Positions 34,356-53,665 of a stretch of 64,000 nucleotides of DNA are shown here, piece after piece. Under the pieces are notes generated by a model. The model had not been told where the DNA came from and made no database searches. It worked only from the letters and a program-made list of their open reading frames with translations. The position numbers and the translations under genes were made by a program. Location: positions 1-64,000 of the forward strand of contig CAKUED010000017.1 in NCBI GenBank assembly GCA_934646005.1, in the 5' to 3' direction. Every line of letters begins with the position of its first letter. Positions within the stretch are counted from its first letter, which is position 1. The DNA comes from an uncultured Oscillospiraceae bacterium (GTDB taxonomy: Bacteria; Bacillota; Clostridia; Oscillospirales; Oscillospiraceae).

Positions 34356-34493
34356 TTACAGTCCCTTGTATTTTCTCCGGGTGGCGATGCCGCCGCGGAT
34401 GTGGCGCTCCGCCTTATTGCGGTCGAGTATTTCCTTGACCTGAACATACAAAGAGCGGTTACACTGCAAAAGCCGCTCCGACAGGTCCTTGTG
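34356..34493 (-). pseudogene. spoIIID: Sporulation regulator SpoIIID, 3' part (split gene)
   Basis: On the minus strand from the core CA (34492-34493) the frame reads KDLSERLLQCNRSL, VKEILDRNKAERHIRGG, ATRRKYKGL and stop: the C-terminal half of SpoIIID, a mother-cell transcription factor of the sigma-E regulon (Bacillus SpoIIID has VHKDLTERLPEINPDLANE and RHLRGGEATK in the same places). The N-terminal half is 18.9 kb away at 53361-53473. Joining 53473-53361 to 34491-34356 gives 249 bases, an 82-residue SpoIIID without a frameshift. As integrated, this half has no start codon. Confidence 0.94.
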
Positions 34494-36024
34494 TGTGGAG
34501 GTCTGGAACCAGAACGGTTTCGTCCAGCCCGAGCCTGTCCAGCACGCGCAGGTAAATATCCACATTCCCGTCCTTGTCCACCGTGATTTTGTCCACAATG
34601 CGCCGCAGCTGCGCGTTCGTCATCTGCCGCACGTCCGTCACATCCTCCAGTGTCCGGAATGTCTGGTGCAGCAGGCTGTCCAGCATGTCGGCGCGCGTCA
34701 GATTATTCGTGACCAGCTTGAGCTCTCCCTCCAGCTGCTCCGTACACTTTTTGATTGCGTCGAGCTTTTGCCGCAGTTCTTCTTTTGTGACAAGCTCTTC
34801 CGCGTACATATCCAGATATTTCTGCCGCGTTTTCTGCTGCTTTGCAAGCTGTGCGCGCAAGTCCTTTTCCTGCCGCATATTATCGTCCTTGGATTTGTAG
34901 AGCTTTTTGAATTTCTCCACGATGTTCTGAATGACAATGTCCTTTTCGCGCAGCAGCGATGCAAAATACGCTTGCAGCGTGTCGATAAGCTCGTCTTCGT
35001 CAATGGACACCGCATTCGGGCAGGCATCCACCCCCTTTCCATTCCGCCCGGAGCACACCCAGCGGACGTAGGTGTTTTTATAACTGCGCACGGTCCTGCG
35101 GAACGACCACCCGCACTCTTTGCAGCGGATAATCGTGGAAAACAGGTGTTGGTTGCTCTGCCGCTGCTTGTCCACCTTGAACGCCTTTCCGCGCGCGGAC
35201 ATAATGTCCTGTGCCCGGTCAAATGACTCCTGTGAGATGACGCGGAAGTCCTCACGCTCCACGACCATCCAGTCCTCCTCGTCCCGGCTCTTGCGCTTGC
35301 TGGTCAGGAAGTCCTCGATTTCCTCCTTCCCATTGATGACCTTGCCCGTGTAGAGCGGGTTCGTCAGGATGCGCTTCACGCCGTTCTGATTCCACTCCGC
35401 ATCGCGCTTCGTCCGCAGTCCGCGCTCGTTCAGAAATGCCGCAATTTTGTTTGTGCCGTAGCCCTCGTCAACATACCAGCGGAAAATCTGCCGAACGACC
35501 TCTGCTTCCGCTTCGTTGATACAAAGATTAAAATAGTCGCCCTTGGTCTTGTCATAGCCATAGACAAGGTTTGGCACACGCCCCTTTTCAGCGTTCATCT
35601 TTTTGCCGAATTTGACGCGCTTGGAGGTGTTTGCGCTCTCCTCCTGCGCCAGCGCGCCGAACATCGTGAGCAAAAATTCGCTGTCGCCCATGCTCTTCAT
35701 GTTCGCGGTCAGAAACTGCGTTTCAATGCCAAGCGATTTCAGCTTGCGGACGCTTTCCAGCAAATCAACGGTGTTTCTCGCAAAACGGGAAATATCCTTG
35801 ACCAGTACCTGCTCAAACAGTCCGCGCTCCGCGTCTGCCATCATACGCAGAAACTCCGCGCGTTTTTTGATTTTTGTACCGGAAATGCCTTCGTCCGCAT
35901 AAATGCATACCAGCGTATCTCCGCTTTTTTTCGCATATTCATAGAAAAATTTTTTCTGCGCCTCCAGACTGTTGAGCTGGTCGGTCTTATCCGTGGAAAC
36001 GCGACAATATGCGGCAATTCTCAT
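34459..36024 (-). CDS. Large serine recombinase of the spoIIID element
   Basis: 521 residues as integrated: catalytic domain MRIAAYCRVSTDKTDQLNSLE (Ser10), EGISGTKIKKRAEFLRMM, KDISRFARNTVDLLESVRKL, EESANTSKRVKFGK; recombinase domain with YGYDKTKGDYFNLCINEAEAEVVRQIFRWYVDEGYGTNKI; zinc ribbon CKECGWSFRR..WVCSGRNGKGVDACPN; coiled coil; C-terminal DKDGNVDIYLRVLDRLGLDETVLVPDLHT. The final codons (from 34491 down) lie in spoIIID DNA in a different frame from SpoIIID. In the circle, 36024-34492 plus 53360-53316 gives 1,578 bases, 525 residues, with a terminator directly behind. Excision should restore spoIIID. Confidence 0.93.
   Translation of the reverse strand: MRIAAYCRVSTDKTDQLNSLEAQKKFFYEYAKKSGDTLVCIYADEGISGTKIKKRAEFLRMMADAERGLFEQVLVKDISRFARNTVDLLESVRKLKSLGIETQFLTANMKSMGDSEFLLTMFGALAQEESANTSKRVKFGKKMNAEKGRVPNLVYGYDKTKGDYFNLCINEAEAEVVRQIFRWYVDEGYGTNKIAAFLNERGLRTKRDAEWNQNGVKRILTNPLYTGKVINGKEEIEDFLTSKRKSRDEEDWMVVEREDFRVISQESFDRAQDIMSARGKAFKVDKQRQSNQHLFSTIIRCKECGWSFRRTVRSYKNTYVRWVCSGRNGKGVDACPNAVSIDEDELIDTLQAYFASLLREKDIVIQNIVEKFKKLYKSKDDNMRQEKDLRAQLAKQQKTRQKYLDMYAEELVTKEELRQKLDAIKKCTEQLEGELKLVTNNLTRADMLDSLLHQTFRTLEDVTDVRQMTNAQLRRIVDKITVDKDGNVDIYLRVLDRLGLDETVLVPDLHTQGPVGAAFAV
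34484..34520 (-). other. Attachment site at the spoIIID 3' half
   Basis: Minus strand: element arm GACCTCCACA (34503-34494), core CA (34493-34492), host CAAGGACCTG. The arm is the exact complement of the arm at the other end. Confidence 0.9.
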
Positions 36025-36148
36025 GCTTTGCCCCCCTTTTCTGGAATATCTCCAGTATCACATGGCTGTGCCCGTTTGTCATTGAAGCTGTGCTTCAAAA
36101 ATATACAAAATTCGCCCGGCTGCACCTGAAATGCAGCCGGGCGATATA

Positions 36149-36331
36149 TCAGACGGCTTCCGATATTTTGTGATACTCTTGTGTGCCTTCTGGGCTCTCA
36201 TAGGCTTTTTGCAGCGCGGCGTCGATTTTCTTCTGGTCGACCTCCAGAAAGAGCTTCAGCAGGAAGTCAGCAGTTTTGGCAGGGGGATTCGGGTCATGGA
36301 ACGTATAGTGCAGCGTCTGCTTTTTCGCCAT
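36149..36331 (-). CDS. TnpW-like small transposon protein
   Basis: 60 residues (MAKKQTLHYTFHDPNPPAKTADFLLKLFLEVDQKKIDAALQKAYES..), resembling the TnpW-type proteins that sit beside TnpX-like large serine recombinases of the Tn4451 group. Role not established; as a small partner encoded just upstream of the recombinase it is a candidate directionality factor (inference). ATG at 36331 chosen for the GGGGG ribosome site and family start; upstream extension not supported. Confidence 0.75.
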   Translation of the reverse strand: MAKKQTLHYTFHDPNPPAKTADFLLKLFLEVDQKKIDAALQKAYESPEGTQEYHKISEAV

Positions 36332-36486
36332 CGCAGCCGAACCCCCTTTCTGCTCCATCGTATGAACTTGTCCGCTCTGGCTAGAACGTTTTTCTTGCAC
36401 CGAAAAACGGCATAAAAAATCGCCAGACACAAAGCGCGTCCGGCGAAAAATCTCATAAATTATACAGTTAAACTATTTCCACATTA

Positions 36487-36515
36487 AGTGTATCGCATTT
36501 TCTTGTGGAAAGCAA
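36487..36515 (-). promoter_or_regulatory. Promoter of the TnpW-like/recombinase unit
   Basis: Minus strand TTGCTT, 17 bases, TACACT. A further TATAAT is at about 36460-36465, so two start points are possible. Confidence 0.6.
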
Positions 36516-36519
36516 TGTT

Positions 36520-36951
36520 TATTTTATTTTCTTTTATTTCGTTATTTTGGCAGGAGTTTTTGAATTAGCTAACTGCCAGAGAAATTGCAACACCGTGGAT
36601 ATTTGATTTTCCCTTAATTAAATTGGAAACGGGATTGTTTCTATGCGAAATAATTCGAAAATCTGTTTTAGCCATTTTCGGTGTGCGATAACACAGAAAG
36701 GCAGGACTCCAAGCGAGTCCTGCCCGAAATCAATCTACAGCTTTACATACTAAGAGTAGCATACGTCCGGATGGATTGCAATTATTTTTTTATTTTCATC
36801 TATTTCTCATATTTTTATTTTTATTTTTTCACATAACCAGCATTTCACGTTTTCTGCTGCATATTTTTCCAGTTCAGACATTCCAACACTAGCATTTGCG
36901 ACTGTAGAGCCGAGCAATGTGTTCCACTGCACATTGCTTGGTTCTACACAT
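36520..36951. other. AT-rich gene-free stretch with two hairpins
   Basis: No coding signal. A terminator-like stem GGCAGGACTC (36700-36709)/GAGTCCTGCC (36715-36724) and a longer imperfect stem 36903-36948 (TGTAGA..CAATGTG / CACATTG..TCTACA, 8-base loop) that ends 4 bases before the tyrosine recombinase stop. The latter could terminate that gene or be a recombination site for it. Confidence 0.55.
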
Positions 36952-37947
36952 TTAGATAGCAAGTAGATAGTTAGCCACAGTTACATCGTGCCTCCAATGG
37001 GCGAGATGATAGACCGACACTGCGAGAAGTGCCAGACGGTCATACGATACCGGCAGGCCGTTTTTCAATGCCAATTCTCGGTTGTGACCACGTAAGACAT
37101 AATTTCCGTTGACTTTACAATCTGTCCAACGCTTTGGACGGTAGCCATTCTCCACACGGACCTCATCGTCTTTTTCCCAAGTATGCTTAATCTCAGCTAT
37201 GAGTTGTTCCCGATAACTCGTTTCGGTGCGAATACGCTCTAAATAGTAATTGTACATCTGCTGTGCTCGTAAAGCACGAAGATGATGCAAGTCTATTTTA
37301 TTGTTCAGCTCGTCACGGCTGAATAAATGCTCCTCATCAGCAGGGGCATCAAAGACAGCTTTTATAGCAGGCAGTTCCTCTGGCAATATATGTTGGAGTT
37401 GACGTTTCCCGCCCTTGCCTTTGCGAACAAGTATACACGGATGACCAAAATCATCGGATACAAGGTCATCTGGACGCAGATGCAGATATTCGTTCCGCCG
37501 GATACCAACAATGCTGGCGAAATCATACAGGCGCGGCGATGCGTCGCGCCCAGCATCTTTGCGCTCATCTACCGCTTTTGCGCCACGCGACCGTGTATTA
37601 TGGGCAACCACACGAATTGGCTTGTTAATATCCGACAACGAAATATCGAGCACGCGGCAAATGCTAGCCAAATAAGTATGCGTCGTCGAAGGCGTTTTTC
37701 CGCTGGTGGTCAAATAATTCGCATAGTCCTGAATATGGGACTTACATTCCTCTAATGTTTTACATCGGTATGTAGCCTTGCAGTATTCCGCAAATTTTAA
37801 AGCGTGCTTTTTGTATTGCCGTTCCGTTTTTGCCAGCATCGGCATACCCTTTTTCTCTTTACGACTTAGTTCTAAATGTTTAATCTGGTATGTAAGACTC
37901 CCGATTTTTTGCTTTTGGGGTACAGAACACCTATGCTTTTTACTCAT
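36952..37947 (-). CDS. Tyrosine recombinase / phage-type integrase
   Basis: 331 residues: N-terminal SAM-like DNA-binding domain (KHALKFAEYCKATYRCKTLEECKSHIQDYANYLTTSGKTPSTTHTYLASICRVL) and catalytic domain with Arg in VGIRRNEYLHL, Lys in RKGKGGKRQ, HxxR in HHLRALRAQ, His/Trp in YHLAHWRHDV and Tyr in VANYLL. All catalytic positions look present. It has a clearly lower GC content than the neighbouring chromosome. The gene borders about 1 kb of hairpin-rich DNA on its upstream side; its own attachment sites are not identified. Confidence 0.88.
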   Translation of the reverse strand: MSKKHRCSVPQKQKIGSLTYQIKHLELSRKEKKGMPMLAKTERQYKKHALKFAEYCKATYRCKTLEECKSHIQDYANYLTTSGKTPSTTHTYLASICRVLDISLSDINKPIRVVAHNTRSRGAKAVDERKDAGRDASPRLYDFASIVGIRRNEYLHLRPDDLVSDDFGHPCILVRKGKGGKRQLQHILPEELPAIKAVFDAPADEEHLFSRDELNNKIDLHHLRALRAQQMYNYYLERIRTETSYREQLIAEIKHTWEKDDEVRVENGYRPKRWTDCKVNGNYVLRGHNRELALKNGLPVSYDRLALLAVSVYHLAHWRHDVTVANYLLAI

Positions 37948-37975
37948 TTATATCAACTACCTTATAATTCAAAAT

Positions 37976-38398
37976 CAGCACAATGTGCTGCCAGCCGCGG
38001 AGCGGCGTGTTAAATACAGCTCAGACTTTTGGCGAGGTGTCCGCTAACCTAAGTGACGGGAACTTGCTAAAGGTCTCCCACACTGCCGGTTTCATTTGCT
38101 TCACTGGTTATTTTCCATGCGCCCGCATGTCAAATAACCAGTTCACCGAGGATTCTTTGTAAGTAAGAACCATTTCATTGATAGGAGTCCACCGGCAGAG
38201 GCTCCTATCGTTCGCAAGAATTCATTGCAGCTCAGAATTCCTATGTGCCTGTCGCTGCGGTTCAGACACACTCCAGAGTAGATTTGCGATAATTGTCAGG
38301 CTGTGTTATTCTTCTGCAAACACAGCGTAAGCAGGGACGGTTAAGTTCCTAAACACATACGCGCATGCGCCGCGGCTCGGTTTTAACGTCCACCGAGC
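37976..38398. other. Hairpin-rich non-coding segment, candidate structured RNA or recombination locus
   Basis: No credible gene. Successive stems: 37976-37990 (CAGCAC/GTGCTG), 37994-38006 (GCCGC/GCGGC), 38103-38142 (ACTGGTTATTT, then CATGCG/CGCATG, then AAATAACCAGT), 38180-38209 (GATAGGAG/CTCCTATC), 38245-38269 (GTG.CTG/CAG.CAC), 38300-38326 (GCTGTGTT/AACACAGC), 38375-38398 (GCTCGG/CCGAGC). This density over 420 bases resembles a large structured RNA, but I could not match it to RNase P, tmRNA, group I/II introns or a riboswitch. Strand unknown. Confidence 0.5.
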
Positions 38399-38538
38399 AG
38401 GATGGGGAGGCACTTGATTCATCTCTCAGACCTCAATTCCTAACAGGAGCAAAACCAGACAATATCACACGTTGCGGATGGTTTGGTTTTGAAAAAGGAA
38501 ATTCGTTTTTTTCGTGGAGAAAATGCTATCTATATGAA

Positions 38539-38625
38539 AAGAGCGTAAGAGAATCGATTTTCTCCTACGCTCTTGAACTGTTATCTCATTAAAACAAGCA
38601 GCTTCCCAGAAATCGGAAAGCTGCT
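38539..38625. terminator. Two strong hairpins downstream of the hairpin-rich segment
   Basis: AAGAGCGTA (38539-38547)/TACGCTCTT (38566-38574) with GAGAA/TTCTC inside, and AGCAGCTT (38597-38604)/AAGCTGCT (38618-38625). Both could act as terminators. Short frames on either strand here look spurious. Confidence 0.5.
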
Positions 38626-38804
38626 CGGAATTTATTTCAGTAAAGAATATAGCAAAGCCCAGCTCTGCGGGAAGAAACGACGACGGTTTTGTCAAAATAG
38701 AAACTCTATATTTTTATTGTACGTGCGATGAAGCAAATGTCAAGCTTTTTACGTTCAGGGGTATCAACGTTCTCAGATATTATGCTTACACACAGTCATC
38801 AGAG

Positions 38805-38848
38805 AAAGCCCATCCCCGCATCGGAAAACCGGTTAAGGGATGGGCTTT
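38805..38848. terminator. Terminator-like hairpin after the SLH gene
   Basis: 12-bp perfect stem AAAGCCCATCCC/GGGATGGGCTTT with a 20-base loop, 57 bases past the SLH gene stop. A TTTTTT run follows on the plus strand; the minus strand side is weaker. Confidence 0.7.
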
Positions 38849-38904
38849 GCTGCGTGATTTTTTAGTGCTGCTATGATCAGCTCGTCAGCAGCAATTGTTG
38901 TAAT

Positions 38905-40479
38905 TTAGTTTGCCCGATAAAGGAATGTGACGATCTGTGCTCGCGTGCAGGCAGCGGCAGGACCAAATGCTCCACTGCTCACGCCCGTGGTGATGCCTTT
39001 GGCAAATGCCCAGTCAACAGCCCTGGCGAAGTAGTCCTTGCCGCTGACATCGCGGAAGCTGCCGGCTTCTGCGGCGGGCTGCCCCTGCGCTCTCCAAAGG
39101 AGCGTCACGACCTGCGCGCGCGTGACCGTCGCATTAGGGCTGAAGGTCGTTGCACTCGTGCCGTTGGTGATGCCGTTTTCAACTGCCCACAGGACGGCGT
39201 TATAGAAGTAATCCCCTGTGTGTACATCGGTGAAGGGACTGACCTCGGCGGACGGTCGCGGGCAGCCGGCAGCTCTCCAAAGGAAGGTCACGACCTGTGC
39301 GCGGGTGCAGACTGCGTCGGGGTCAAAGGTGAACCGGCTGACACCGCTTGTAATGTCATTGTCCACTGCCCACTTGACCGCATCGTAGTAATAATCCTTG
39401 AACGATACATCGCGGAACGGGAGACCTGCGCCCGCGATTGCAATGAGGATCGGGTCGATGTCATCTGTGTCCGGCTCATCCTGCTTTGCCGGTGTGACGG
39501 TGACGGCGCAGGTCGCGGTAATGCTCCGATCCGCAGCGCTGGTGACTGTGATGTACGTTTTGCCGGCGGCACGCCCTCTGACACGACCGTTTGCATCGAC
39601 CGTCGCGATGGTCTCGTCGGCGCTGCTCCACATGACGTCGCGCTGCGTGGTATCCGCGGGAGTGAAGCGCGGGGTCAACTGAACGCTCCCGCCAACAGAG
39701 ACTTGTGTGTCGGTCAGCGCAATGCCGGTAATAGGGACAGGTCTGGCGCTGACCGTGACGGCGCAGGTCGCCGTCTTGCCGCCGTCTGCCGTGGTGACGG
39801 TGATGGTCGCCGTGCCGGCGCCGACTGCCTTCACAACGCCGTTACTGACCGTCGCAACGGCAGGATCGCTGGTGCTCCAGGTAACATCCTTATCATCGGC
39901 GTTATCCGGGGAGACCGTGGCGGTCAGAGCTTCCGAATCGCCGGCGGTCAGGGAAATACTCGTTTTGTCGAGGGAAACGCCGGAAACGTGGACAGGCGCG
40001 GGCTTAACGGTAAGCGTAGCTGAAACCGGCGTATTCGCCCAAGAACGATCATTGTTGAAGTCGTAGGTGGACAAGCTAAGATCCTTAACACCAATGTTAT
40101 ATGTGCCGGCAGCAACAGAGGACGGAACACGGACAACGATCTTGGAAAACACAGTCGTCATAGCGTTATCGATCGACGGTACATACCAACTGACTTTTCC
40201 GATGCTCAAATTATAAAAACCTTCATAGGAAATTGCGTCTGTACCCGACGAAATGGATACAAGAGAAAACTCACTGGGCAGATCAACAAGATAAGAAACA
40301 CTGGAAAGACCGAACTCCTTAGACAATTTCAGCGTCAGCGTGATCTCCTGTTCCGTTCCGCTCGTAATGGTTTGCTTGTCCAACTCCGCAAGGGCAGTCG
40401 GTGCATCCACTGCAAAGGCAGTAATGCCAAGTGACAGGCATAGTGCCACTGCCAAGATCAAAGCAACCAGTTTTTTCAT
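38905..40479 (-). CDS. Cohesin-like / Big_2 / SLH cell-wall anchor protein
   Basis: 524 residues: signal peptide (to about AFA, residue 23); a cohesin-like beta-sandwich, about 30-160 (QTITSGTEQEITLTLKLSKEFGLSSVSYLVDLPSEFSLVSI..); two Big_2 immunoglobulin-like domains, about 165-335 (VSGVSLDKTSISLTAGDSEALTATVSPDNADDKDVTWSTSDPAVATVS); three SLH repeats, about 350-524 (PFRDVSFKDYYYDAVKWAVDNDITSG..). SLH repeats bind pyruvylated wall polymer. As last gene of the cohesin/dockerin set, 18 bases after the adaptor gene, it should tether a dockerin-bearing partner. The cohesin assignment is weaker than for the adaptor. Confidence 0.85.
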   Translation of the reverse strand: MKKLVALILAVALCLSLGITAFAVDAPTALAELDKQTITSGTEQEITLTLKLSKEFGLSSVSYLVDLPSEFSLVSISSGTDAISYEGFYNLSIGKVSWYVPSIDNAMTTVFSKIVVRVPSSVAAGTYNIGVKDLSLSTYDFNNDRSWANTPVSATLTVKPAPVHVSGVSLDKTSISLTAGDSEALTATVSPDNADDKDVTWSTSDPAVATVSNGVVKAVGAGTATITVTTADGGKTATCAVTVSARPVPITGIALTDTQVSVGGSVQLTPRFTPADTTQRDVMWSSADETIATVDANGRVRGRAAGKTYITVTSAADRSITATCAVTVTPAKQDEPDTDDIDPILIAIAGAGLPFRDVSFKDYYYDAVKWAVDNDITSGVSRFTFDPDAVCTRAQVVTFLWRAAGCPRPSAEVSPFTDVHTGDYFYNAVLWAVENGITNGTSATTFSPNATVTRAQVVTLLWRAQGQPAAEAGSFRDVSGKDYFARAVDWAFAKGITTGVSSGAFGPAAACTRAQIVTFLYRAN

Positions 40480-40497
40480 TCTACCAGCCCTCCATTT

Positions 40498-41850
<1,353 letters not shown>

Positions 41851-41896
41851 TTATAAAAATGTGTTGTATCACAGGATACATGAATTGAGTGTGTCT

Positions 41897-41932
41897 CTGC
41901 CGGAGAATATGTCCCTGCATATTCTCCGGCAG
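41897..41932 (-). promoter_or_regulatory. Intercistronic hairpin between dockerin cargo and adaptor genes
   Basis: 15-bp perfect stem CTGCCGGAGAATATG/CATATTCTCCGGCAG with a 6-base loop, 13 bases past the cargo stop. No U-tract follows on the minus strand, so it is an mRNA-stabilising or attenuating stem rather than a clear terminator. Confidence 0.7.
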
Positions 41933-41944
41933 GTGGATACCAGG

Positions 41945-47900: not shown

Positions 47901-49504
47901 ATATCAAGCATTTCAGCTTTATCATGTGTCAGAGTCGCGTTGATGCCGATTGTCCCATCTTCATAACTGACAGTGCGATTGACCTCGGTAAAGTAAGTGT
48001 AATAGGTTCTGGCTTCCGTGGAACCCCACTCTATTTTTTGCTGCACACCGATGCTGCCGGTAAGCGACATATAGACTTTACCATTGGAATCAGAGTATTT
48101 CCATTTTGGGAAACCTACCGAGGCGACATCTCGTCCCTCCCAAGCTTTTTCTTCCACCAACGCATTATACTTATAGCTGATGGGTTTACTTTCATCCAGC
48201 GTCCAGACAAAGTCCCCATCCTTATAATGGACCGCTCTGCCCTGCCAGGTGGGATTGAAGGTCAGGTCGCTCGTCTGACCGAAATCGATGGAAACGCTGC
48301 TGTTGGTAAAGCCCAGCTTGTCCGGCCATTGCACCTGAATGGTGGTCTGACCAACGGTCTCCCCGCCGGCAGTCAGACCGACAGTGACTGCGCCGCAGGT
48401 ATCGGTCGCCGTATAAAGTCCGTTCGCGTCAATGCTGCCGCCGCCGGAAAGAACTGCCCAGGAAGCGCCCGCAGGGATTGCCGCGCTGCCGCCGGCAGCG
48501 TCAACGCCGGAGGCGGAAAACTGCACCGTGCTGCCGGGCGTGTAGACTGCATCGTTGGGCGTCAGCACTGCATGGGCAAACTGTCCTGTGGGCTTCGCTG
48601 TGGAGAGCACCATGACTGTGTTTGATACCTTGCGCTCGTAGCCGTCAGACGGGCGGCAGCGCAGGGTAAGACCAGCGGAAGTGCTATTCTCAGGTTCGCC
48701 CTCGCGCTGGGTGGCAAAGGTCGAAGAGCCGCCGCCATCCAAATTGACCGCCTCCACGCAGCCAAGCTCCTCCATGGCGGCAGCGACCTCCGCCATGGTC
48801 ATGCCGACGGAATAGGGCGCTTGCCGCCCGTCCACCATGAACATCACCACCGTGCCGTCCGCCTTAATGCCGATGGCTGTGCGGGAAGCGCGAGTGGTAT
48901 CGTCAAGCCCGCTGCGGGCATGACCGTTTTCAAAAATATCGCCGAAGCTTGCAACCGCTTCCACGACATTTCCGGCTGCAAAGGCGGCATTGCATTCCTG
49001 TGCGCTCGTGATATGCGCATTGCCGTCCTTGTCGATCCAGAAGGTCGTGCCAGTCGGGGCGTTGATCTGCGTCCCGCTCATGATGAACGCGCCGCTGGGG
49101 CGACCGTTGCTCATATCATAGCCGCCGGCATTGATCGCGCCGACGACATTGGTGCTGCGGTTGGTCTGCATACTCTGCGCCTGCCTGGTTGTCTCCGTCA
49201 TGGCCCAGTTTCTGCCGCCTGCAATGGCGTCGATGTTGTCGTCGCCGTAGCCGACTGCAATGGAAGCAGTCGAGCCGCTGCTGACCTTGACCTCCATGAC
49301 GTGACCGACCATCTGCTCGGTCAGACCGTTGTTGTTGAGCAGCCACGCATACTCCGTCACGCCAGGCGCAACGTTGTATTGTGTCTTTGAAATTTCGCGA
49401 ATGCCCTGCGCTGTCATGGCGCTGCCCACAGCGCGCGCAGTTGGCGGCAGCACCGCAAGCATCAGAATCAATGCCAGAAGTACTGAACAAATGCGTCTTT
49501 TCAT
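41945..49504 (-). CDS. Giant secreted dockerin protein: phosphodiester glycosidase, metallophosphatase, CotH kinase
   Basis: 2,519 residues. Signal peptide (1-26). Phosphodiester glycosidase (NAGPA-type) domain about 60-300, with NLDGGGSSTFATQ near 250. Ig-like domain, then a carbohydrate-binding-like region with an FEDRTG start (about 605-860). Purple-phosphatase-like Fn3 about 1240-1330. Calcineurin-type metallophosphatase about 1335-1560: GDIQSSD (1343), TGDAIDN, GNHEYY (1407), GGDDHAYAR (1507). Fn3 about 1830-1905. CotH domain about 1990-2400 (KARGNSTF; YDGEYRGVYLLSEK near 2146). C-terminal dockerin with two DVNGDGxVDIFD loops (2460, 2500). Substrates unknown; phosphorylated or phosphodiester-linked glycans are plausible. 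Good AGGAGGAGAGG ribosome site. Confidence 0.88.
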   Translation of the reverse strand: MKRRICSVLLALILMLAVLPPTARAVGSAMTAQGIREISKTQYNVAPGVTEYAWLLNNNGLTEQMVGHVMEVKVSSGSTASIAVGYGDDNIDAIAGGRNWAMTETTRQAQSMQTNRSTNVVGAINAGGYDMSNGRPSGAFIMSGTQINAPTGTTFWIDKDGNAHITSAQECNAAFAAGNVVEAVASFGDIFENGHARSGLDDTTRASRTAIGIKADGTVVMFMVDGRQAPYSVGMTMAEVAAAMEELGCVEAVNLDGGGSSTFATQREGEPENSTSAGLTLRCRPSDGYERKVSNTVMVLSTAKPTGQFAHAVLTPNDAVYTPGSTVQFSASGVDAAGGSAAIPAGASWAVLSGGGSIDANGLYTATDTCGAVTVGLTAGGETVGQTTIQVQWPDKLGFTNSSVSIDFGQTSDLTFNPTWQGRAVHYKDGDFVWTLDESKPISYKYNALVEEKAWEGRDVASVGFPKWKYSDSNGKVYMSLTGSIGVQQKIEWGSTEARTYYTYFTEVNRTVSYEDGTIGINATLTHDKAEMLDMRTNTWAECTAEQNAENVNLSHAFTVGKFVGNIFTADEKNSLRATAKVSLQNNTAVTGEIELVVGLEPLVLMDFEDRTGVNWNTYITNKSNGGQGDNTTFGQLSNEHIQQSGLWVRTATNAGVVFDGSGVVSAAQDERVRFGEKAFKLCFDFTGCSPTSTAAADGGFSCDLYVNKVQPTKIGMWVNVPADLKDCPYLLKAIMAGGVTGMTEAKTDGGHNELNADGSFTYKDFGTNGGKGKIPKGTTMYTQYYGTAQVKNEDGKLETVTLTTLGDMAGKGWIWVEADISSMQMPIAVYRAYTFRVVKTATMSTLSTGNILVDNVQFIYGTNTNDVTRPVLESVTETSSGMALESDGSTVLSSGNLTFNAVYSDSEQTDKYATGIDTSGIRVLLDGTDYTGKLEINDGSLYLKGISLRNGTHTLTVRLKDFYGNVTTETRTFRVEDAQGIQSAIDILPQPEPPEIGKQYVFAIVNNTGEDVTQAELTVDFSTMSGAEKYLAGASVEAFGDGYTLTLEQAALAKGLARITVTKQPVIQTRRAMLTGAQSTDYNYVSELGYLIITIPENAASDSALRCTVTQGSYTVADGSEDGAAYTFSGTEKIIPMTASYQLTCAQAIAGMQATLAVTDANGAPVSRAAVYQVSGGTSQRLGSTSMKGIFKHIFDTPGEYTLYAEKPGSGRSWDQRVIVCERTTENDGKPFGILTNGVTVPGTKSITWLTQIDGSAEKAQIRYSASRDLSNAVTVDGTSALQTFVQSSRGDALRSNQVTLTDLTPDTTYYYQVGDGLTWSDTQSFKTPAADAEATNFFILGDIQSSDTANLAHVLEDLKKDTVSYDFAVQTGDAIDNVTEYIKNWRPFLTRVNGENLDGVDLIHVLGNHEYYGDADGKISKAIYDLPESTQNSWYKMEYGKVCVVVVNNGTKLSDALADIAENLTTDCIWKVLVAHEPIYGTESVSATSEILSSIEKAGFDFVFGGDDHAYARTYPMLGGVKQAEDSRKGVVYYVCGDLSGKSNAFHERAEYVKAIAHNDYGGMYLTVSATEESFTVKAIDVSGSVLDSYTETRTDCELGRHRVDNTSKYDMTAGKITCARCGAELTPEGDYAFSGLLATTDSKQVILTGGVAERNKFVSLGGRYHACADGYAYLTEQSDSRTCVTAGYITYTCPQCKAADRSDIQRPVGHEWDADHVCTVCHTKGADINDAGIVFKFGSPENPREIEPAPNYYYTGEGVRPGSFAKRGDYVLTQNNDANLIGGRIPNLYVEWPDSRNVGKAEIKYEGRADYYGTKTLTYYIVPNDVKDLRCTSAAVDSLRLAWSAAPGAEYYEVFQCDRNNGSRSSLGTTDQTSFTVTGLKAETEYYFVAAGRAKVAAENNKVYTSPRWSNILCAMTTPVSADVTAMCATVDGVQLPAVKAGDLNYLFLPASADITDLEVSFTCRPEQGSLIVRGDRSSRTMGEEQTLDVSALATETDGYYTVIAAVGNGAALRVRIMQAAELPTLYLTSGSSAEDRAYIDASKEHSTAAALRMLDANGGEIAATNITELKARGNSTFTYAQKKSYQIKLETAADLLQSDESVRTWVLLANYFDATLMHDKLFKDLAADLQMPYTASCDWVNLYYDGEYRGVYLLSEKNAVKSTGIDITDMEEAYEALNPEYGKNMQTSSGENAYGMTYSYTTGLTEPENITGGYLLELNHDRPDEVSGFITRKGKGMNVKSPGWCGEEAMRYISEYYQEFEDAVYAVDENGAYTGYNEATGKHYYDYVDRDSLVKIFLMQELALNPDGFISSLYFYKDADGILYAGPVWDQDMTLGTGWTKQITPDTTDYHYLAEALIQIPDFRDAVYRCYTESFAPLAKELLAQDGAVSNYAARLTDSAKMNFVLWSYIRVGSPESAGHIWQNATYASVLADMQSWLTQRIDRLDERFATPAFEAGDVNGDGDVDIFDVYALRRYFAGYAVDGIIPANGDVNGDGEVDIFDVWALQRRLAGYED

Positions 49505-49698
49505 TTCCTCTCCTCCTGCTTTTCTTTTGGGTCATGCCGAAGGTACAGTTCCGTTCGGAACATTTTGGATACAAAAGTACACATTTTTATCTGAATTAAA
49601 GTGGAATAAGGTCTTGCAAAACATATATAAAACTGTTATTATTTAGATGTATCCAAGGCTGCCGAAGAAACGGTCTCCCTTTGGGTAACAAACTGTAC
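49505..49698. promoter_or_regulatory. Gap between cargo gene and resolvase, with inverted TTGGATACA repeats
   Basis: TTGGATACA (49565-49573) and TGTATCCAA (49648-49656) face each other around 74 AT-rich bases that should hold the cargo operon promoter (TATATA-type boxes near 49625, no clear -35). A short GTTCC/GGAAC stem lies at about 49551-49560. A small invertible promoter is conceivable. Confidence 0.5.
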
Positions 49699-50292
49699 TT
49701 ATGTATCAGATGGGTCTCTTGCCCACCGAAGGAAGGTTCGGTGGGTGATTTTTAGCGCCTTGGCAGCTTGGCAGGCGGAAAGCTCGCCTTTGCTCCACCG
49801 CTCCCGCAATTCCGGAAATTCCGCCGGTCTTGGTGAAGGACGGCGGCCAAACTGGACGCCCCGCGCCTTTGCCGCCGCGATGCCCTCTGCCTGTCGCTGC
49901 CGGATGAACTCACGCTCCGTCTGCGCAACGTAGCTGAGTAGCTGCAAGACGATGTCCGCGATCAGCGTGCCGGTCAGGTCGCGGTTCTGCCGCGTGTCCA
50001 GCAGCGGCATATCCAGCACCACGATGGCCGCGTGCTTTTCCTTGGTGATGATGCGCCACTGCTCCAGAATCTCCTCATAGTTCCTGCCCAAACGGTCGAT
50101 GCTCTTGACAACAAGCGTATCGCCGTTTTTCAGTTTGCGCATCAGCCGTCGGTACTGCGTCCGCTCGAAATCCTTTCCGGACTGCTTGTCCACGAAAATT
50201 GCGCTTTCCGCAATTCCAAACCCAGTCAACGCAATCAATTGCCGCTCCGCGTTCTGTTCCTTTGTAGATACACGTGCATACCCATATTCCAT
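49699..50292 (-). CDS. Hin/Tn3-type serine resolvase-invertase
   Basis: 197 residues: catalytic domain MEYGYARVSTKEQNAERQL (Ser9), SGKDFERTQYRRLMRKLKNGDTLVVKSIDRLGRNYEEILEQW, then TEREFIRQRQAEGIAAAKARGVQFGRRP and a C-terminal helix-turn-helix (ELSACQAAKALKITHRTFLRWA). Small recombinases of this type resolve cointegrates or invert segments. GGATAC sites surround the gene at 49567, 49650, 50316 and 51070. Good GGGGG ribosome site. Confidence 0.92.
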   Translation of the reverse strand: MEYGYARVSTKEQNAERQLIALTGFGIAESAIFVDKQSGKDFERTQYRRLMRKLKNGDTLVVKSIDRLGRNYEEILEQWRIITKEKHAAIVVLDMPLLDTRQNRDLTGTLIADIVLQLLSYVAQTEREFIRQRQAEGIAAAKARGVQFGRRPSPRPAEFPELRERWSKGELSACQAAKALKITHRTFLRWARDPSDT

Positions 50293-50304
50293 TTTTCAGA
50301 CCCC

Positions 50305-50330
50305 CAATCTATTTCGGATACAATAGATTG
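50305..50330. promoter_or_regulatory. Palindrome with GGATACAA upstream of resolvase
   Basis: CAATCTA (50305-50311)/TAGATTG (50324-50330) frames TTTCGGATACAA, 13-38 bases before the resolvase ATG. Candidate res subsite or operator. Confidence 0.55.
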
Positions 50331-50446
50331 TAAGTCAGCTGTTAACCACGCCGTTTTAAGAATGCGTTCCCATGTTCACCTCACCCAAATTACCGAAGTC
50401 AATATAACTCTATAACAACTCTGTTTTGGATTTTTTGACAAGGCGA

Positions 50447-50474
50447 AAAGTTATTATGAGTCCATAATAACTTT
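50447..50474. promoter_or_regulatory. Palindromic operator of the RHH gene
   Basis: 12-bp perfect arms AAAGTTATTATG/CATAATAACTTT with a 4-base spacer, 16 bases before the ATG at 50491. A TTGACA lies at 50435-50440, so the palindrome overlaps the presumed promoter. Fits autorepression by an Arc-like dimer. Confidence 0.7.
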
Positions 50475-50490
50475 AATCGGAGATGGTAAC

Positions 50491-50664
50491 ATGGATAAAA
50501 CAAACGAAAAGCACTTCGGCTTGCGCGTGGACGGCGATATTTTGGCAAAGTTCCGCTATGTTTGCGGGTTCGAAGGACGTTCAGCCAACGCGCAGATTAT
50601 TCAGCTGATGCTGAAGTTCATTGCGGATTATGAGAAAGAGCACGGAAAAATCCAGTTAGACTGA
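50491..50664 (+). CDS. Arc/RHH-type DNA-binding protein
   Basis: 57 residues (MDKTNEKHFGLRVDGDILAKFRYVCGFEGRSANAQIIQLMLKFIADYEKEHGKIQLD), too short for most gene finders. HFGLRVDGDILAKF is the ribbon strand and first helix; SANAQIIQLMLKFIADYEK the second helix. It is the kind of antitoxin or repressor found on mobile elements. Its palindromic operator lies just upstream and a terminator-like stem (50683-50711) follows. It could regulate itself or the MazF/PemK unit 415 bases downstream. Confidence 0.8.
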   Translation: MDKTNEKHFGLRVDGDILAKFRYVCGFEGRSANAQIIQLMLKFIADYEKEHGKIQLD

Positions 50665-50682
50665 CAGATAAACAAAAATCCA

Positions 50683-51045
50683 CCGCACATCAGAACAAGT
50701 CTGGCGTGCGGCGGGTTTTGATACATTGCACAATTTGCCCATTTAATATTTGTTGATTATGCTGATACGAAACATGAAAATAACTTGCAACATCGGTTGC
50801 AGGAGCGTTTGCGGTGCTTTATACTGGTTGTAGAAAACAAAACAACGGCAGCCTATGGGAGTTGCAGCTCCCATAGACCTGCGCAGGTGAGAACACCACC
50901 TACACAACGGCATGACGCCGCACCGTACCCTCAGTATACCCTTTTGAATCCCTTTTGGCAAGGCTGGGAATGGATCGGTTGTGCATTTTGTCGCGGATTT
51001 GATTTTCCAACGTGTAGGCAAAAACAGCCTGCACGTTGTTTTGGT
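50683..51045 (+). other. Leader region with three hairpins before MazF/PemK gene
   Basis: Stems: CCGCAC/GTGCGG (50683-50711, then CGGGTTTTG); CTATGGGAG/CTCCCATAG (50853-50876); CAACGTG.AGGC/GCCT.CACGTTG (51008-51038) followed by TTTTGGTTTT. The last is a terminator-like stem only 40 bases before the MazF/PemK start, suggesting attenuation. Open frames across it are not convincing. Confidence 0.55.
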
Positions 51046-51078
51046 TTTCAAAACTATATTTTAAGGAGCGTATCCAAA

Positions 51079-51495
51079 ATGAAAACCATTCAGTATCCGC
51101 AGAACAAACCCATGACCGCAGCCGGTGTCGGTTGTACCAGATTGGAACTCTGGCTCGTTGACATGCCCAAGCCCAGCGATGACACGCACGTACAGTATGG
51201 TGTGCGCCCGGCAATCGTCATCAGCAACGACGCGGCGAACGAAAACAGTCCTGCTATTACGGTTATTCCTTTGACAAGTAATCGCAAAAAGGGGCAGCTG
51301 CCGACGCACGTTTTCATTTCCAACGCCGGCCTTTCTCGCAGCAGCATCACCCTGGGCGAACAGATTCACACGCTCGACAAGGGGCGTATGTTGAAGAAAC
51401 TTGGTCAAATCACGAACCCGTTCACCATCAAGACTGTTGAATATGGTTTGGCAGTCCAGCTTGGACTGGTCAGCCTCCTGTGCCCGGCGGCTTGA
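51079..51495 (+). CDS. MazF/PemK-family protein (type II toxin-like endoribonuclease)
   Basis: 138 residues. MazF/PemK fold signs: GCTRLELWLVDMPKPSDDTHVQYGVRPAIVISNDAANENSPAITVIPLTSNRKKGQLPTHVFI..GLSRSSITLGEQIHTLDKGRMLKKLGQI. The start has the usual R-G-D/E-ish loop altered to TRLELWLVD, while GVRPAIVISND and EQIHTLDK are conserved. No adjacent antitoxin of matching phase; the nearest DNA-binding protein is the RHH gene at 50491. The ATG at 51079 has AAGGAG upstream and lies in a repeated GTATCCAAAATG site. Followed after 13 bases by a helicase gene. Confidence 0.85.
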   Translation: MKTIQYPQNKPMTAAGVGCTRLELWLVDMPKPSDDTHVQYGVRPAIVISNDAANENSPAITVIPLTSNRKKGQLPTHVFISNAGLSRSSITLGEQIHTLDKGRMLKKLGQITNPFTIKTVEYGLAVQLGLVSLLCPAA

Positions 51496-51508
51496 AGGAG
51501 GTGCGACT

Positions 51509-53026
51509 ATGAGACGGTATTTTAATTACGAACACAAGGCGCGCGGAGCGTATATTTTGACCGCATTGGAGAAATATTTGAGAAACGGCGACGCCTTTTT
51601 TGCAAGCGAAGCCGACGCCATCCGCATTTGCCAGCGGAAATACAAGAATGTATCTCTGAGTAAGCTGAAAGCGGATTTCGACTATCTGTTGGAAAATGGA
51701 GACTTGGTGTTTGAGGGGTCTCGGCTGTATCTATACAAAGTGCAGCGCTATGAGGACTTTGTGGCTTCCGAACTGGCCTCCATCTTGCCCCACAATGTTG
51801 TACCCACCCATCCGATGGTGGACTTGGACGTCAGCGCTGGTGTACGGCTGAATGAGTTGCAGAAAGAAGCCATTCAGATGGCGCGCAGCAACCATCTGAG
51901 CATGATTCTCGGCGGCGCTGGGTCAGGCAAGACGACGCTCGTGCAGGCGCTTTGTCTCGAATATTTTGTCGATGGGAAACTCGTTCTGGCAGCGCCGACT
52001 GGCAAGGCTGCCCGCAATCTCACGGAGCGTACCGGACTTCCTGCCAGAACCGTCCACAGCGCTCTCGGTAAGATTCCGGATGAAGACTTTCTTGACCCCG
52101 TGAAATGGTCTACGATTCGCATGGTGGTCGTTGATGAGGCCAGTATGCTGTCGCTGGAGCTTTTTGCCGGACTGCTCAGCAAGCTTCCTGCAAATTGCAG
52201 CCTTGTTTTAGTAGGCGACCCGAATCAGCTGGGTTCTGTCGGTACAGGCAATCTGATTCCGGAGCTGCTGGAGCTCGGCTGCCCTGTCACGCGGCTGGAG
52301 CAGCAGTACCGCCAGTCGAACAATGAATCCGCGCTGTTTTACAATGTCGTGAACTATCCGAAGCTCTTTGATTCCGAAGAACTGAAGTTCGATGAGTCTT
52401 TCAAGCTGATTCCGACCAACGAAGGGGACATTTTTACGGTCATTCAGGAGGAAGCCGCGAAGCGGCATCTCGCTGGCGAGAATGTCCAGGTCATTGCCCC
52501 GACCAGAGATGATGTCAAAAGACTGAATGAGCAGCTCCAGCAGGTGGTCAATCCGCCTGCTGAAGGAAAACCGGAAGTCACACACAATAGCATTACCATC
52601 CGGGAGAATGACCGCACCATGATTCTCAAGAACAATCGTGAAGAGCGATGCTTTAACGGCGACATTGGCACGGCGCACGTAGAGCCGATGGAGGGCGGCA
52701 GCGCGTTTATTCACATTCCGCTCTCCGCGAACCGCCAGCCTAAGTTCTTCAGTGCCAAAATTGGGAGCACACTCGCGCTGGCTTATGCGTTGACCGTGCA
52801 CAAAAGTCAGGGCAGTCAGTACGATACGGTCATTATGCCAGCCAGCACAGACTGTCAAAAAATGCTTCGGCGCAATCTTTTCTACACAGCCATTTCGAGA
52901 GCGAAGAAGCAGGTCATCCTTGTTGGCTGCAAGGAGGCGCTGCACATTGCAATGGTCACACCGCCGGAGCCGCGCAAGAGTATGCTGGTTACCAAAACCC
53001 ACCAGAAGATGCATTTTGCCGCATGA
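51509..53026 (+). CDS. RecD2-like superfamily 1B helicase
   Basis: 505 residues. N-terminal winged-helix-like part, then Walker A MILGGAGSGKTTLVQAL (motif I), AAPTGKAARNLTERTG (Ia), VVVDEASMLSLELFAGLL (II), LVGDPNQLGSVGTGNL (III), LEQQYRQS (IV), and YALTVHKSQGSQYDTVIMP / FYTAISRAKKQVILVG (V, VI): all SF1B motifs intact. A stand-alone RecD-like enzyme without RecBC, shorter than housekeeping RecD2. GAAGGAG 8 bases before the ATG. Operon with MazF/PemK and HTH genes; possible role in element replication or defence. Confidence 0.9.
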   Translation: MRRYFNYEHKARGAYILTALEKYLRNGDAFFASEADAIRICQRKYKNVSLSKLKADFDYLLENGDLVFEGSRLYLYKVQRYEDFVASELASILPHNVVPTHPMVDLDVSAGVRLNELQKEAIQMARSNHLSMILGGAGSGKTTLVQALCLEYFVDGKLVLAAPTGKAARNLTERTGLPARTVHSALGKIPDEDFLDPVKWSTIRMVVVDEASMLSLELFAGLLSKLPANCSLVLVGDPNQLGSVGTGNLIPELLELGCPVTRLEQQYRQSNNESALFYNVVNYPKLFDSEELKFDESFKLIPTNEGDIFTVIQEEAAKRHLAGENVQVIAPTRDDVKRLNEQLQQVVNPPAEGKPEVTHNSITIRENDRTMILKNNREERCFNGDIGTAHVEPMEGGSAFIHIPLSANRQPKFFSAKIGSTLALAYALTVHKSQGSQYDTVIMPASTDCQKMLRRNLFYTAISRAKKQVILVGCKEALHIAMVTPPEPRKSMLVTKTHQKMHFAA

Positions 53027-53265
53027 GCATGAGCTTCAAATATCCAGTAATTGATATGCACGCGACTGGCACGCATATCAAAGAGCTGATGGACGCGCAG
53101 GAAGTTACGGTTCAGGATGTCCAAGATGCAATGGGACTTGCCTCACCACAGGCAGTATATCGTTGGCTGCGCGGCAGCAATATGCCAAGCGTGGACAATT
53201 TGTACGCGCTCAGTCGGTATCTGGACATTTCAATGGAAGATGTGATTGTAGAGAAAGCAGCATAA
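53023..53265 (+). CDS. Xre-like helix-turn-helix protein
   Basis: 80 residues; HTH VTVQDVQDAMGLASPQAVYRWLRGSNMPSVDNLYALSRYLDISMEDVIVEKA is Cro/CI-like. ATG overlaps the helicase stop as ATGA. It may control the helicase/MazF unit or excision. Its 3' end overlaps the tail of the truncated spoIIID frame on the other strand. Confidence 0.88.
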   Translation: MSMSFKYPVIDMHATGTHIKELMDAQEVTVQDVQDAMGLASPQAVYRWLRGSNMPSVDNLYALSRYLDISMEDVIVEKAA

Positions 53266-53268
53266 CGC

Positions 53269-53303
53269 AAAAAACGGGCGGGAAGCGATTTGCTTCCCGC
53301 CCG
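53269..53303. terminator. Terminator at the inner end of the spoIIID element
   Basis: 12-bp perfect stem CGGGCGGGAAGC/GCTTCCCGCCCG, 5-base loop; TTTTTT on the minus strand. In the circle it lies 13 bases after the recombinase's own stop (TAG at 53318-53316), mirroring the SASP element. Confidence 0.88.
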
Positions 53304-53339
53304 TGCTGCGTCTTCCTACGCGACAGCCCACCAGAAACG

Positions 53340-53375
53340 TTCTGAACCATGACCTCCACATGCACGGTCGATTTG
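53340..53375 (-). other. Attachment site at the spoIIID 5' half
   Basis: Minus strand: host CGACCGTG, core CA (53362-53361), element arm TGTGGAGGTC, then ATGGTTCAGAACG. The arm is the exact inverted repeat of that at 34494-34503. Confidence 0.9.
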
Positions 53376-53473
53376 GAAACGCCGAAATGCTTCGCCGCGT
53401 CACGGATGGTGGTGCGGTGTTCGATGATGTACACAGCAAGCTCCTGCGCTCGTGTCTCGAGATCTTCTTTCAT

Positions 53474-53665
53474 GTGGGCACCTCCAAGCTGTGTATGCTA
53501 CAACATCCTATGCCCGCAAACAGCCCAGTATACGCCCCCGCTCCCCTGCCACGCACAGGCATCCGGGATTGACAGAGGGGCATGAGCCGGTATATGATAC
53601 AAAAAGGGCGTCTGCGTGACAGGCTTTCACCATCTGGAGTTCTTTGGAGATCTATATAAGGAGAA
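53474..53665. promoter_or_regulatory. Divergent control region of spoIIID and the oxidoreductase gene
   Basis: On the minus strand CATACACA at about 53489-53496 resembles a sigma-E -10 box before spoIIID; no matching -35 was found at normal spacing, so this is tentative. On the plus strand TATGATAC at about 53593 may serve the oxidoreductase. No gene seen. Confidence 0.35.

Follow-up and report, generated by a model that had tools for sequence, protein, structure and literature searches.

The window, a 64,000-nucleotide stretch of DNA from an uncultured Oscillospiraceae bacterium, carries the sporulation gene spoIIID in two pieces, separated by an element that encodes its own large serine recombinase (LSR). 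The sequence-only reading had placed both halves on one strand 18.9 kb apart, with exact inverted repeats at the element ends around a common CA, and this is borne out: the halves lie at 53473-53361 and 34491-34356, both on the minus strand, and the ends read GACCTCCACA / TGTGGAGGTC. The gene, its promoter and the element boundaries are arranged as follows.

53361..53473, minus strand: spoIIID N-terminal half, 37 codons and two bases of codon 38, the final bases being the core CA
34356..34491, minus strand: spoIIID C-terminal half, the remainder of codon 38, then KDLSERLL..KYKGL and the stop
53505..53533, minus strand: sigma-E-like promoter of spoIIID, GTATACT, N14, CATAGGAT, 16.0 bits, itself among the training sequences of the model
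34492..53360, minus strand: spoIIID-intervening element, 18,869 bp with one core counted
53335..53362, minus strand: attL, core CA (53362-53361) and a 26-bp element arm
34492..34519, minus strand: attR, a 26-bp element arm and core CA (34493-34492), with similar arms in relatives

In-silico joining of the halves after the common CA leaves 249 bases and an uninterrupted SpoIIID of 82 residues with the C-terminus KYKGL, just as had been predicted for removal of the element. The break point in the window is codon 38. When the att arms are taken out to 26 bp, 20 of the 26 positions match, and none of 100,000 shuffles was as good. The G+C content is 44-58% in the element (2-kb bins) versus 57-66% in the flanks shown. 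The element itself carries the following genes and sites.

34459..36024, minus strand: LSR of 521 aa with Resolvase, Recombinase and Zn_ribbon_recom domains; its 3' end runs into spoIIID
36149..36331, minus strand: candidate recombination directionality factor (RDF), 60 aa from an inner ATG, with the open frame reaching back to a GTG at 36430
36357..36364, minus strand: possible -10 (CATACGAT) before the candidate RDF, a weak site of 6.1 bits with a poor -35
36952..37947, minus strand: 331-aa protein, integron-integrase resemblance below threshold, no Pfam family
38905..40479, minus strand: cargo, surface protein with SLH and Big_2 domains (domain scan)
40498..41832, minus strand: cargo, protein with cohesin and dockerin domains; 15-bp tandem repeat in 30.7 copies
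41945..49504, minus strand: cargo, 2,519-aa protein with NAGPA, metallophosphatase, CotH kinase and dockerin domains
49699..50292, minus strand: small serine resolvase of 197 aa (domain scan)
50785..51495, plus strand: cargo, ORF of uncertain start with a PemK/MazF-like toxin domain
51503..53026, plus strand: cargo, RecD-like helicase; these coordinates are the scanned stretch of an ORF open from 51401
53023..53265, plus strand: cargo, Cro/C1-type HTH regulator (domain scan)

The Resolvase, Recombinase and zinc-ribbon domains place the recombinase among the large serine recombinases. Its frame crosses the junction, and its final residues are encoded by spoIIID DNA in a different frame. The longest PDB matches are the YokA and YokA-YotN entries of SP-beta (9dxh, 9dxd), a likeness to that prophage; YokA is presumably SprA, and YotN SprB. 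No phage structural families were found among the element proteins scanned with Pfam, which included part of the small ORFs, and in this the element may differ from skin. With a split sporulation gene that rejoins in frame, a common core with inverted-repeat att arms and a site-specific recombinase of its own, it probably belongs with the intervening elements of sporulation genes (skin, gin, vfbin, SP-beta/spsM and yin). It is not skin proper, since its target is spoIIID and not sigK.

The same split recurs in relatives. Pairs were counted where the tblastn alignment of the N-terminal half reached at least residue 36 and that of the C-terminal half began at residue 3 or earlier, and in all 40 such pairs, among them that of the window, the reading frame is restored at one and the same codon with no stop; 38 of the pairs lie on one contig. 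An assembly artefact, which had been named as one of the findings that would refute the reading, is unlikely because 39 other loci have this split. A stable split in which the two halves, or the N-terminal half alone, function as separate proteins would fit the promoter-like sequence retained by the N-terminal half and the frame of the window's C-terminal half, which is open from a TTG within the LSR gene. It is nevertheless very improbable, as the break falls between STVH and KDL, inside what we take to be the DNA-binding region of SpoIIID, and as separate proteins would not account for a break that lies always at the recombination core in the recovered pairs.

Among the LSR relatives, 75 of 80 genome loci have the SpoIIID C-terminal half directly after the recombinase, and three (L003, L007 and L022) are inserted elsewhere. 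Split spoIIID genes also house more distant LSRs (35-48% identical). Record titles of the split carriers name at least two families, Lachnospiraceae and Oscillospiraceae; a point against the predicted excision is that, to our knowledge, spore formation is not established in several of the hosts (Faecalibacterium, Blautia, R. torques). An ordinary integrative island that uses the conserved spoIIID as attB and inactivates the gene in hosts no longer sporulating is an unlikely explanation, but one in keeping with part of the distribution: many of the 120 LSR homologs listed run into genes other than spoIIID, the family also occurs in a Christensenella genome without spoIIID, and in a sample of 71 genomes from one family the split is patchy, with 10 cases among 61 spoIIID-bearing genomes. 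The state of the gene argues against such an island. No stop codons were found in 41 N-terminal halves (codons 7-38) or 86 C-terminal halves (first 41 codons), and the median dN/dS was 0.168 for rejoined split genes (10 pairs) versus 0.222 for intact genes (31 pairs), with 0.281 (71 pairs) and 0.304 (172 pairs) for the halves taken separately. By these measures both halves are under purifying selection. In a whole-genome search that took 20 of the 80 LSR loci, the window's own genome not being among them, no intact spoIIID was found; 18 of the 20 genomes have spoIIID, with both halves on one contig in 15, and all 18 retain spoIVA, which likewise speaks against hosts that have given up sporulation.

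A small gene accompanies the recombinase. It was first noticed by eye and then profiled, and its unnamed product is about 59 aa long across the LSR loci. It is present in 58 of the 59 loci having more than 2.5 kb upstream and lies inside all 16 complete elements; L037 has none despite 3.6 kb upstream, and in L066 it is on the opposite strand. In the one-family sample it was found in 7 of 10 split genomes versus none of the 61 others (Fisher p = 9e-8, a value that overstates independence, the sequences being related). One of the seven matches, in G188, is weak (E 1.8e-4) and lies on the opposite strand beside the N-terminal half, and the three split genomes G191, G196 and G230 gave no match. 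Weak matches lie between the N-terminal half and the LSR in L121 and L125, and there was none in the four non-centre genomes of the class sample that carry the split, whose LSRs are more distant. The window's candidate RDF matched no Pfam or NCBIfam family at cut-off and has a low-confidence predicted structure (pLDDT 63.9, one helix); the small-protein family, unannotated and comprising 3,589 clusters, has no PDB sequence match, which sets it apart from the SP-beta system. Linkage, co-occurrence and the promoter described below make the small protein a candidate excision factor (RDF) of the LSR.

The sigma-E model was trained on spoIVA and spoIIID upstreams and on no small-gene upstreams; the training was uneven, with 5 of 16 spoIVA upstreams below 8 bits. 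The 72 small-gene upstreams have a median of 10.2 bits, compared with 2.5 for 1,561 control ORF upstreams and 2.3 for shuffles, whereas the 76 LSR upstreams have a median of 4.7 with none at 12 bits or more, a little above the controls (at least 10 bits in 9% versus 3%). Judged by these scores, the small gene, unlike the LSR, has a sigma-E-like promoter across the family, albeit a weak one in the window, and this linked gene with a mother-cell type promoter is a further point against the ordinary island, as are the N-terminal half upstreams, 15 of 16 of which score at least 14 bits, albeit as part of the training set. The RRACAR motif was conserved after the -10 in 39 of 68 promoters scoring at least 7 bits (14% in shuffles). 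It may be a SpoIIID box, judging from the consensus in Bacillus subtilis, for which no paper was found in the literature searched, or may reflect nothing more than the context of the start codon; we make no claim for it.

Another possibility is excision outside development, with random loss of the element and sporulation confined to the cells that have lost it. In its favour, the window's own candidate RDF promoter is weak, and G037 has two contigs whose overlap, exactly 127 bp, stops at the core, as for an alternative path, the sole LSR match there being 28% identical; yin of Clostridium botulinum was found excised at all time points (PMC10747680). We still regard random loss as rather unlikely, given the common sigma-E-like layout (KACTATT-N14-CATAG) that is typical before the small gene in diverged elements. 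For none of the elements did an excised product come to light, which weighs against the predicted excision, as does the weakness of the window's promoter.

The recombinases also point to movement between hosts. Those of Blautia glucerasea and Extibacter muris are 96% identical while SpoIVA is 56% identical, and transfer is indicated since the LSRs are far more alike than the hosts; the element family is thus likely to be horizontally mobile. Some vertical signal stands beside transfer in these distances, with a Mantel r of 0.45 between LSR and SpoIVA (15 of 18 genomes, three being dropped with SpoIVA short or unfound). Four viral contigs (L081-L084, of which L082 and L083 are identical across the stretch compared) carry members of the LSR family (61-62%) together with the small gene, adjoining an uninterrupted attP-like palindrome. 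These sites were read by eye and do not exactly fit the strict attP pattern, which had no match in the scan of viral contigs. PHROGs gave matches for 6 of 10 proteins of L081 and L082, including DNA polymerase, NrdD, PhoH and tail proteins, and the two are taken as phages on this gene content. When viral sequences were scanned with a single small-protein sequence, no relative turned up; that scan was insensitive, since the small-protein profile does match in L081-L084. LSR relatives occur in 615 phage records, the best 51% identical, and no small-protein match was found in phage records.

Taken together, by far the most probable reading is that spoIIID, split as the sequence shows, houses a widespread, likely horizontally mobile family of LSR-bearing elements whose predicted excision in the mother cell would restore the intact gene. 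The skin-like interpretation of the sequence-only reading is strengthened by the rejoining, the selection on the halves, the lack of any uninterrupted copy in the 18 genomes found to have spoIIID, the retained spoIVA and the small-gene promoter; its single case has become a widespread family with signs of transfer. We propose that the LSR would integrate attP into the attB of spoIIID, that the small protein would act as its directionality factor, and that sigma-E would switch this factor on in the mother cell, where excision would rejoin spoIIID. In the forespore chromosome the element would stay, and so be inherited by the spore. Passage from sigma-E to SpoIIID, one step above sigma-K, would then be gated by a DNA rearrangement, and it is in this sense that we infer a developmental switch at spoIIID. 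The element could thus be tolerated in a sporulation regulator at little host cost, which would explain the repeated use of the same site.

Known intervening elements offer close parallels. The skin of C. difficile (LSR CD1231, RDF CD1234) is likewise an LSR element in a mother-cell regulator gene, and its LSR is constitutive while the small RDF is under sigma-E and SpoIIID (PMC5025042). The candidate RDF and its predicted promoter would resemble this arrangement, but the target there is sigK, one step later than spoIIID, and control by SpoIIID would be impossible for a first excision at spoIIID. In Bacillus cereus ATCC10987, gin (GirC, GirX) lies in gerE, a small transcription-factor gene, and is an island other than a prophage, with its own serine recombinase and RDF (PMC5595907); it is reported for one strain, whereas the spoIIID element occupies dozens of loci and shows signs of transfer. 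SP-beta in spsM combines a serine integrase (SprA) with an RDF under sporulation control (SprB; PMC6957869), but it is an active phage, and the gene it interrupts belongs to the spore envelope. The yin element interrupts a sporulation gene of C. botulinum V73 with a recombinase and putative RDF, and differs in being reported as unique to one isolate and in its target yabG, a coat protease gene (PMC10747680).

The sequence-only reading knew of no described case in spoIIID, and we found no description of an interrupted spoIIID in the literature searched, which took in no bioRxiv and few subscription journals. The literature examined places intervening elements in sigK or gerE, or in genes concerned with spore structure and metabolism, while the switch predicted here concerns the mother-cell regulator directly below sigma-E. 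The split could account for spoIIID genes annotated as broken or missing, and the small-protein family constitutes a testable set of candidate excision factors for serine integrases. Cultured carriers exist, among them Extibacter muris DSM 28560 (L050), Schaedlerella arabinosiphila DSM 106076 (L053), Blautia massiliensis GD8 (L027) and Agathobaculum butyriciproducens DSM 100391 (L019), which makes the question directly testable. We lean, with some reserve, towards a broader view: mobile islands and phages throughout the spore-forming Clostridia would share spoIIID as their docking site, would carry defence genes and would be removed by a sigma-E-driven directionality factor in the mother cell alone, which is doomed. 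On this view, many gut spore formers would depend on an irreversible DNA excision to pass from sigma-E to SpoIIID.

The spoIIID gene of the window is interrupted, as the sequence-only reading had claimed. The N-terminal part (...AAATCGACCGTGCA) stops at 53361 and its continuation (CAAGGACCTG...) starts at 34491, both on the minus strand, and joining at CA yields 249 bases that encode an 82-residue SpoIIID without internal stop. The element between the halves spans 18,869 bp, with a G+C content in 2-kb bins of 44-58% versus 57-66% in the flanks. The inverted repeats claimed for its ends are indeed exact over 10 of 10 bases, and the longer arms match at 20 of 26 positions, a level reached in 0 of 100,000 shuffles. 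The element encodes:

34459-36024, large serine recombinase (LSR), 521 aa
36149-36331, small gene, candidate recombination directionality factor (RDF), profile match

Its cargo includes surface proteins and a PemK-like toxin. A 2,519-aa protein (41945-49504, minus strand) combines phosphodiester glycosidase, metallophosphatase, CotH kinase and dockerin domains and adjoins cohesin-dockerin and SLH proteins. Inside the element these form a surface set of an unusual kind.

The 3′ end of the LSR gene crosses the core, and its last residues are spoIIID DNA in another frame; the insertion targets of LSR relatives can therefore be read from their tails. Among LSR protein homologs 7,979 of 7,995 scored candidates passed, and tails were inspected among the 120 listed. 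In many of these the stop could be supplied by the spoIIID His codon CAT, or the tail is frame-shifted SpoIIID, and others read into unrelated genes. Eleven clusters among the matches listed (P0007-P0017; LSR relatives, 70-71% identical) run into a DUF362 (PF04015) gene, which indicates that the LSR family uses further targets besides spoIIID.

Scanning one genome per species found 172 LSR relatives, and the best 80 of these, 64-72% identical to the window LSR, were kept. The SpoIIID C-half directly follows the LSR in 75 of these best 80 loci (74 within the set distance, plus L026, with a 43-base overlap between C-half and LSR end). The LSR ends in readable spoIIID sequence in L031 and at the core in L060, and the element is inserted elsewhere in L003, L007 and L022. 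Hosts named in titles among the 75 include Blautia, Extibacter, Schaedlerella, Mordavella, Pseudoflavonifractor, Flavonifractor, Agathobaculum, Angelakisella, Anaerotignum and a Faecalibacterium MAG. Judged from these loci, the spoIIID-splitting element is widespread. In L036 two C-halves (positions 2238 and 4870; 157 bp, 94% identical) lie 2.6 kb apart after the LSR, which suggests tandem insertion at one site.

Twenty of the 80 LSR loci, mostly from named isolates, were taken to a whole-genome search with a SpoIIID model; spoIIID was absent from two genomes, and the 18 spoIIID-bearing relatives held parts only, with no intact copy in any. Both halves lay on one contig and strand in 15, on two contigs in two, and the C-half stood alone in one. 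All 18 have kept spoIVA, in G001 (Pseudoflavonifractor sp. Marseille-P3106) as two distant pieces (C20:236830-237279 and C20:489491-489769, same contig and strand, 252 kb apart) with a break around profile position 150; this may be another interrupted sporulation gene or the result of a rearrangement.

In a sample of 71 genomes from the family of G008, spoIIID is present in 61, near full length in 50 of these. Nine are split on one contig (one being the genome around which the sample was drawn), G230 has two overlapping pieces on two contigs and G215 the N-half only. An even sample of 147 genomes across the class of G018 has spoIIID in 112; besides G018 it is split in G061, G073 and G139 (one contig) and G071 (two contigs), and G100 has the N-half only.

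L128 (G042:C1:588300-593000) has an intact spoIIID followed by two ORFs resembling an ATPase and partner and by extra copies of the spoIIID 3′ part (90% identical, 271 bp), the pattern expected of an island that carries a gene end of its own and so restores spoIIID when it enters. Two contigs of G037 (C93 and C105; loci L129 and L130) share an overlap of exactly 127 bp, which ends at the spoIIID core (GTACATA). The assembly branches here, at the att site, perhaps from mixed occupied and empty sites. In L131 (G159) an additional N-half, together with part of its upstream DNA (173 bp, 96% identical), lies on another contig, and G178 and G204 have second N-halves, seen as matches only.

When attL and attR, the element ends joined to the spoIIID halves, were compared side by side for the window and 39 other loci (the count excludes another three, whose genes are intact), rejoining was in frame in 40 of 40. 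The junction follows ...STVH or STIH and uses the same His codon in each. Arms such as AACCGTTCTAATT and TAGAACGGTT are typical. Selection on the split gene is evident in the codons compared, with no stops in 41 N-halves or 86 C-halves and a dN/dS of 0.168 for rejoined genes (10 pairs), similar to 0.222 for intact ones (31 pairs); the halves taken apart gave medians of 0.281 and 0.304. Three of the 39 (G061, G073, G139) have more distant LSRs, 35-37% identical and just before the C-half in G061 and G073, and 48% identical beside the N-half in opposite orientation in G139. G071 has a 48% identical LSR 2.4 kb from the C-half. Several LSR lineages have thus used spoIIID, with the same codon in three of these four cases.

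LSR and host have diverged unequally. LSR identity lies far above SpoIVA identity in several pairs, such as Blautia glucerasea and Extibacter muris (96% versus 56%) and Angelakisella and Extibacter (90% versus 47%). Cargo also varies: eight proteins scanned from non-window elements included AbiL-like genes (L046, L053, L062), an IetS-like protease (L050) and methyltransferases (L002, L014). In L081-L084, of which L082 and L083 are identical, LSR and small gene lie beside an uninterrupted palindrome resembling attP, the site of the circular element, and L081 and L082 additionally have genes for phage replication or tail proteins.

Sixteen complete elements, 3.8-10.8 kb long, revealed the small gene (about 59 aa, KLNYRFHNPNP..ADYLLKIFMEAN). 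Its linkage to the LSR is close: a profile matched it in 71 of the 80 loci, in 58 of the 59 where over 2.5 kb precede the LSR and inside 16 of 16 complete elements, and also in the four viral loci (L081-L084). It occurred in 7 of the 71 family-sample genomes, all split (one weak match on the other strand), and in 2 of the 147 class-sample genomes, the split centre and a Christensenella genome with the element elsewhere. No family reached cut-off in a Pfam and NCBIfam scan, and a PDB sequence search gave no match. The protein family comprises 3,589 clusters, and of the few names given among the 120 listed, almost all read hypothetical or uncharacterized protein.

Training of a two-box sigma-E model used 16 spoIVA upstreams, 5 of which fit poorly, and 16 upstreams of the spoIIID N-half, small-gene upstreams not being included. 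The 72 small-gene upstreams scored (5 of 77 matches with less than 150 bp upstream were left out) had a median of 10.2 bits; other ATG ORFs on both strands, not confirmed as genes, gave 2.5 (1,561 upstreams) and shuffled sequences 2.3. For the LSR the upstream median was 4.7 bits, with none at 12 or more. The window upstream scored 6.1 bits and its −35 is poor, evidence against a sigma-E-driven small gene in this copy.

Interrupted sigK, spsM, spoVFB, spoVR, gerE, kamA and yabG are described in PMC5595907, PMC6957869 and PMC10747680. The available part of PMC3416734 makes no mention of an interrupted spoIIID, and no report of one was recognised in the literature searched, largely at title level and without bioRxiv and most subscription journals. 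It is inferred that the LSR integrates the element at attB, the joined spoIIID site, that sigma-E would drive expression of the small protein, and that this would act as RDF, the element then being excised in the mother cell and spoIIID rejoined. In the skin element of C. difficile, the RDF CD1234 is under sigma-E and SpoIIID, and the LSR is constitutive (PMC5025042). Here, in contrast, SpoIIID input on the RDF would be impossible for the first rejoining of spoIIID itself, so that sigma-E alone would have to suffice.
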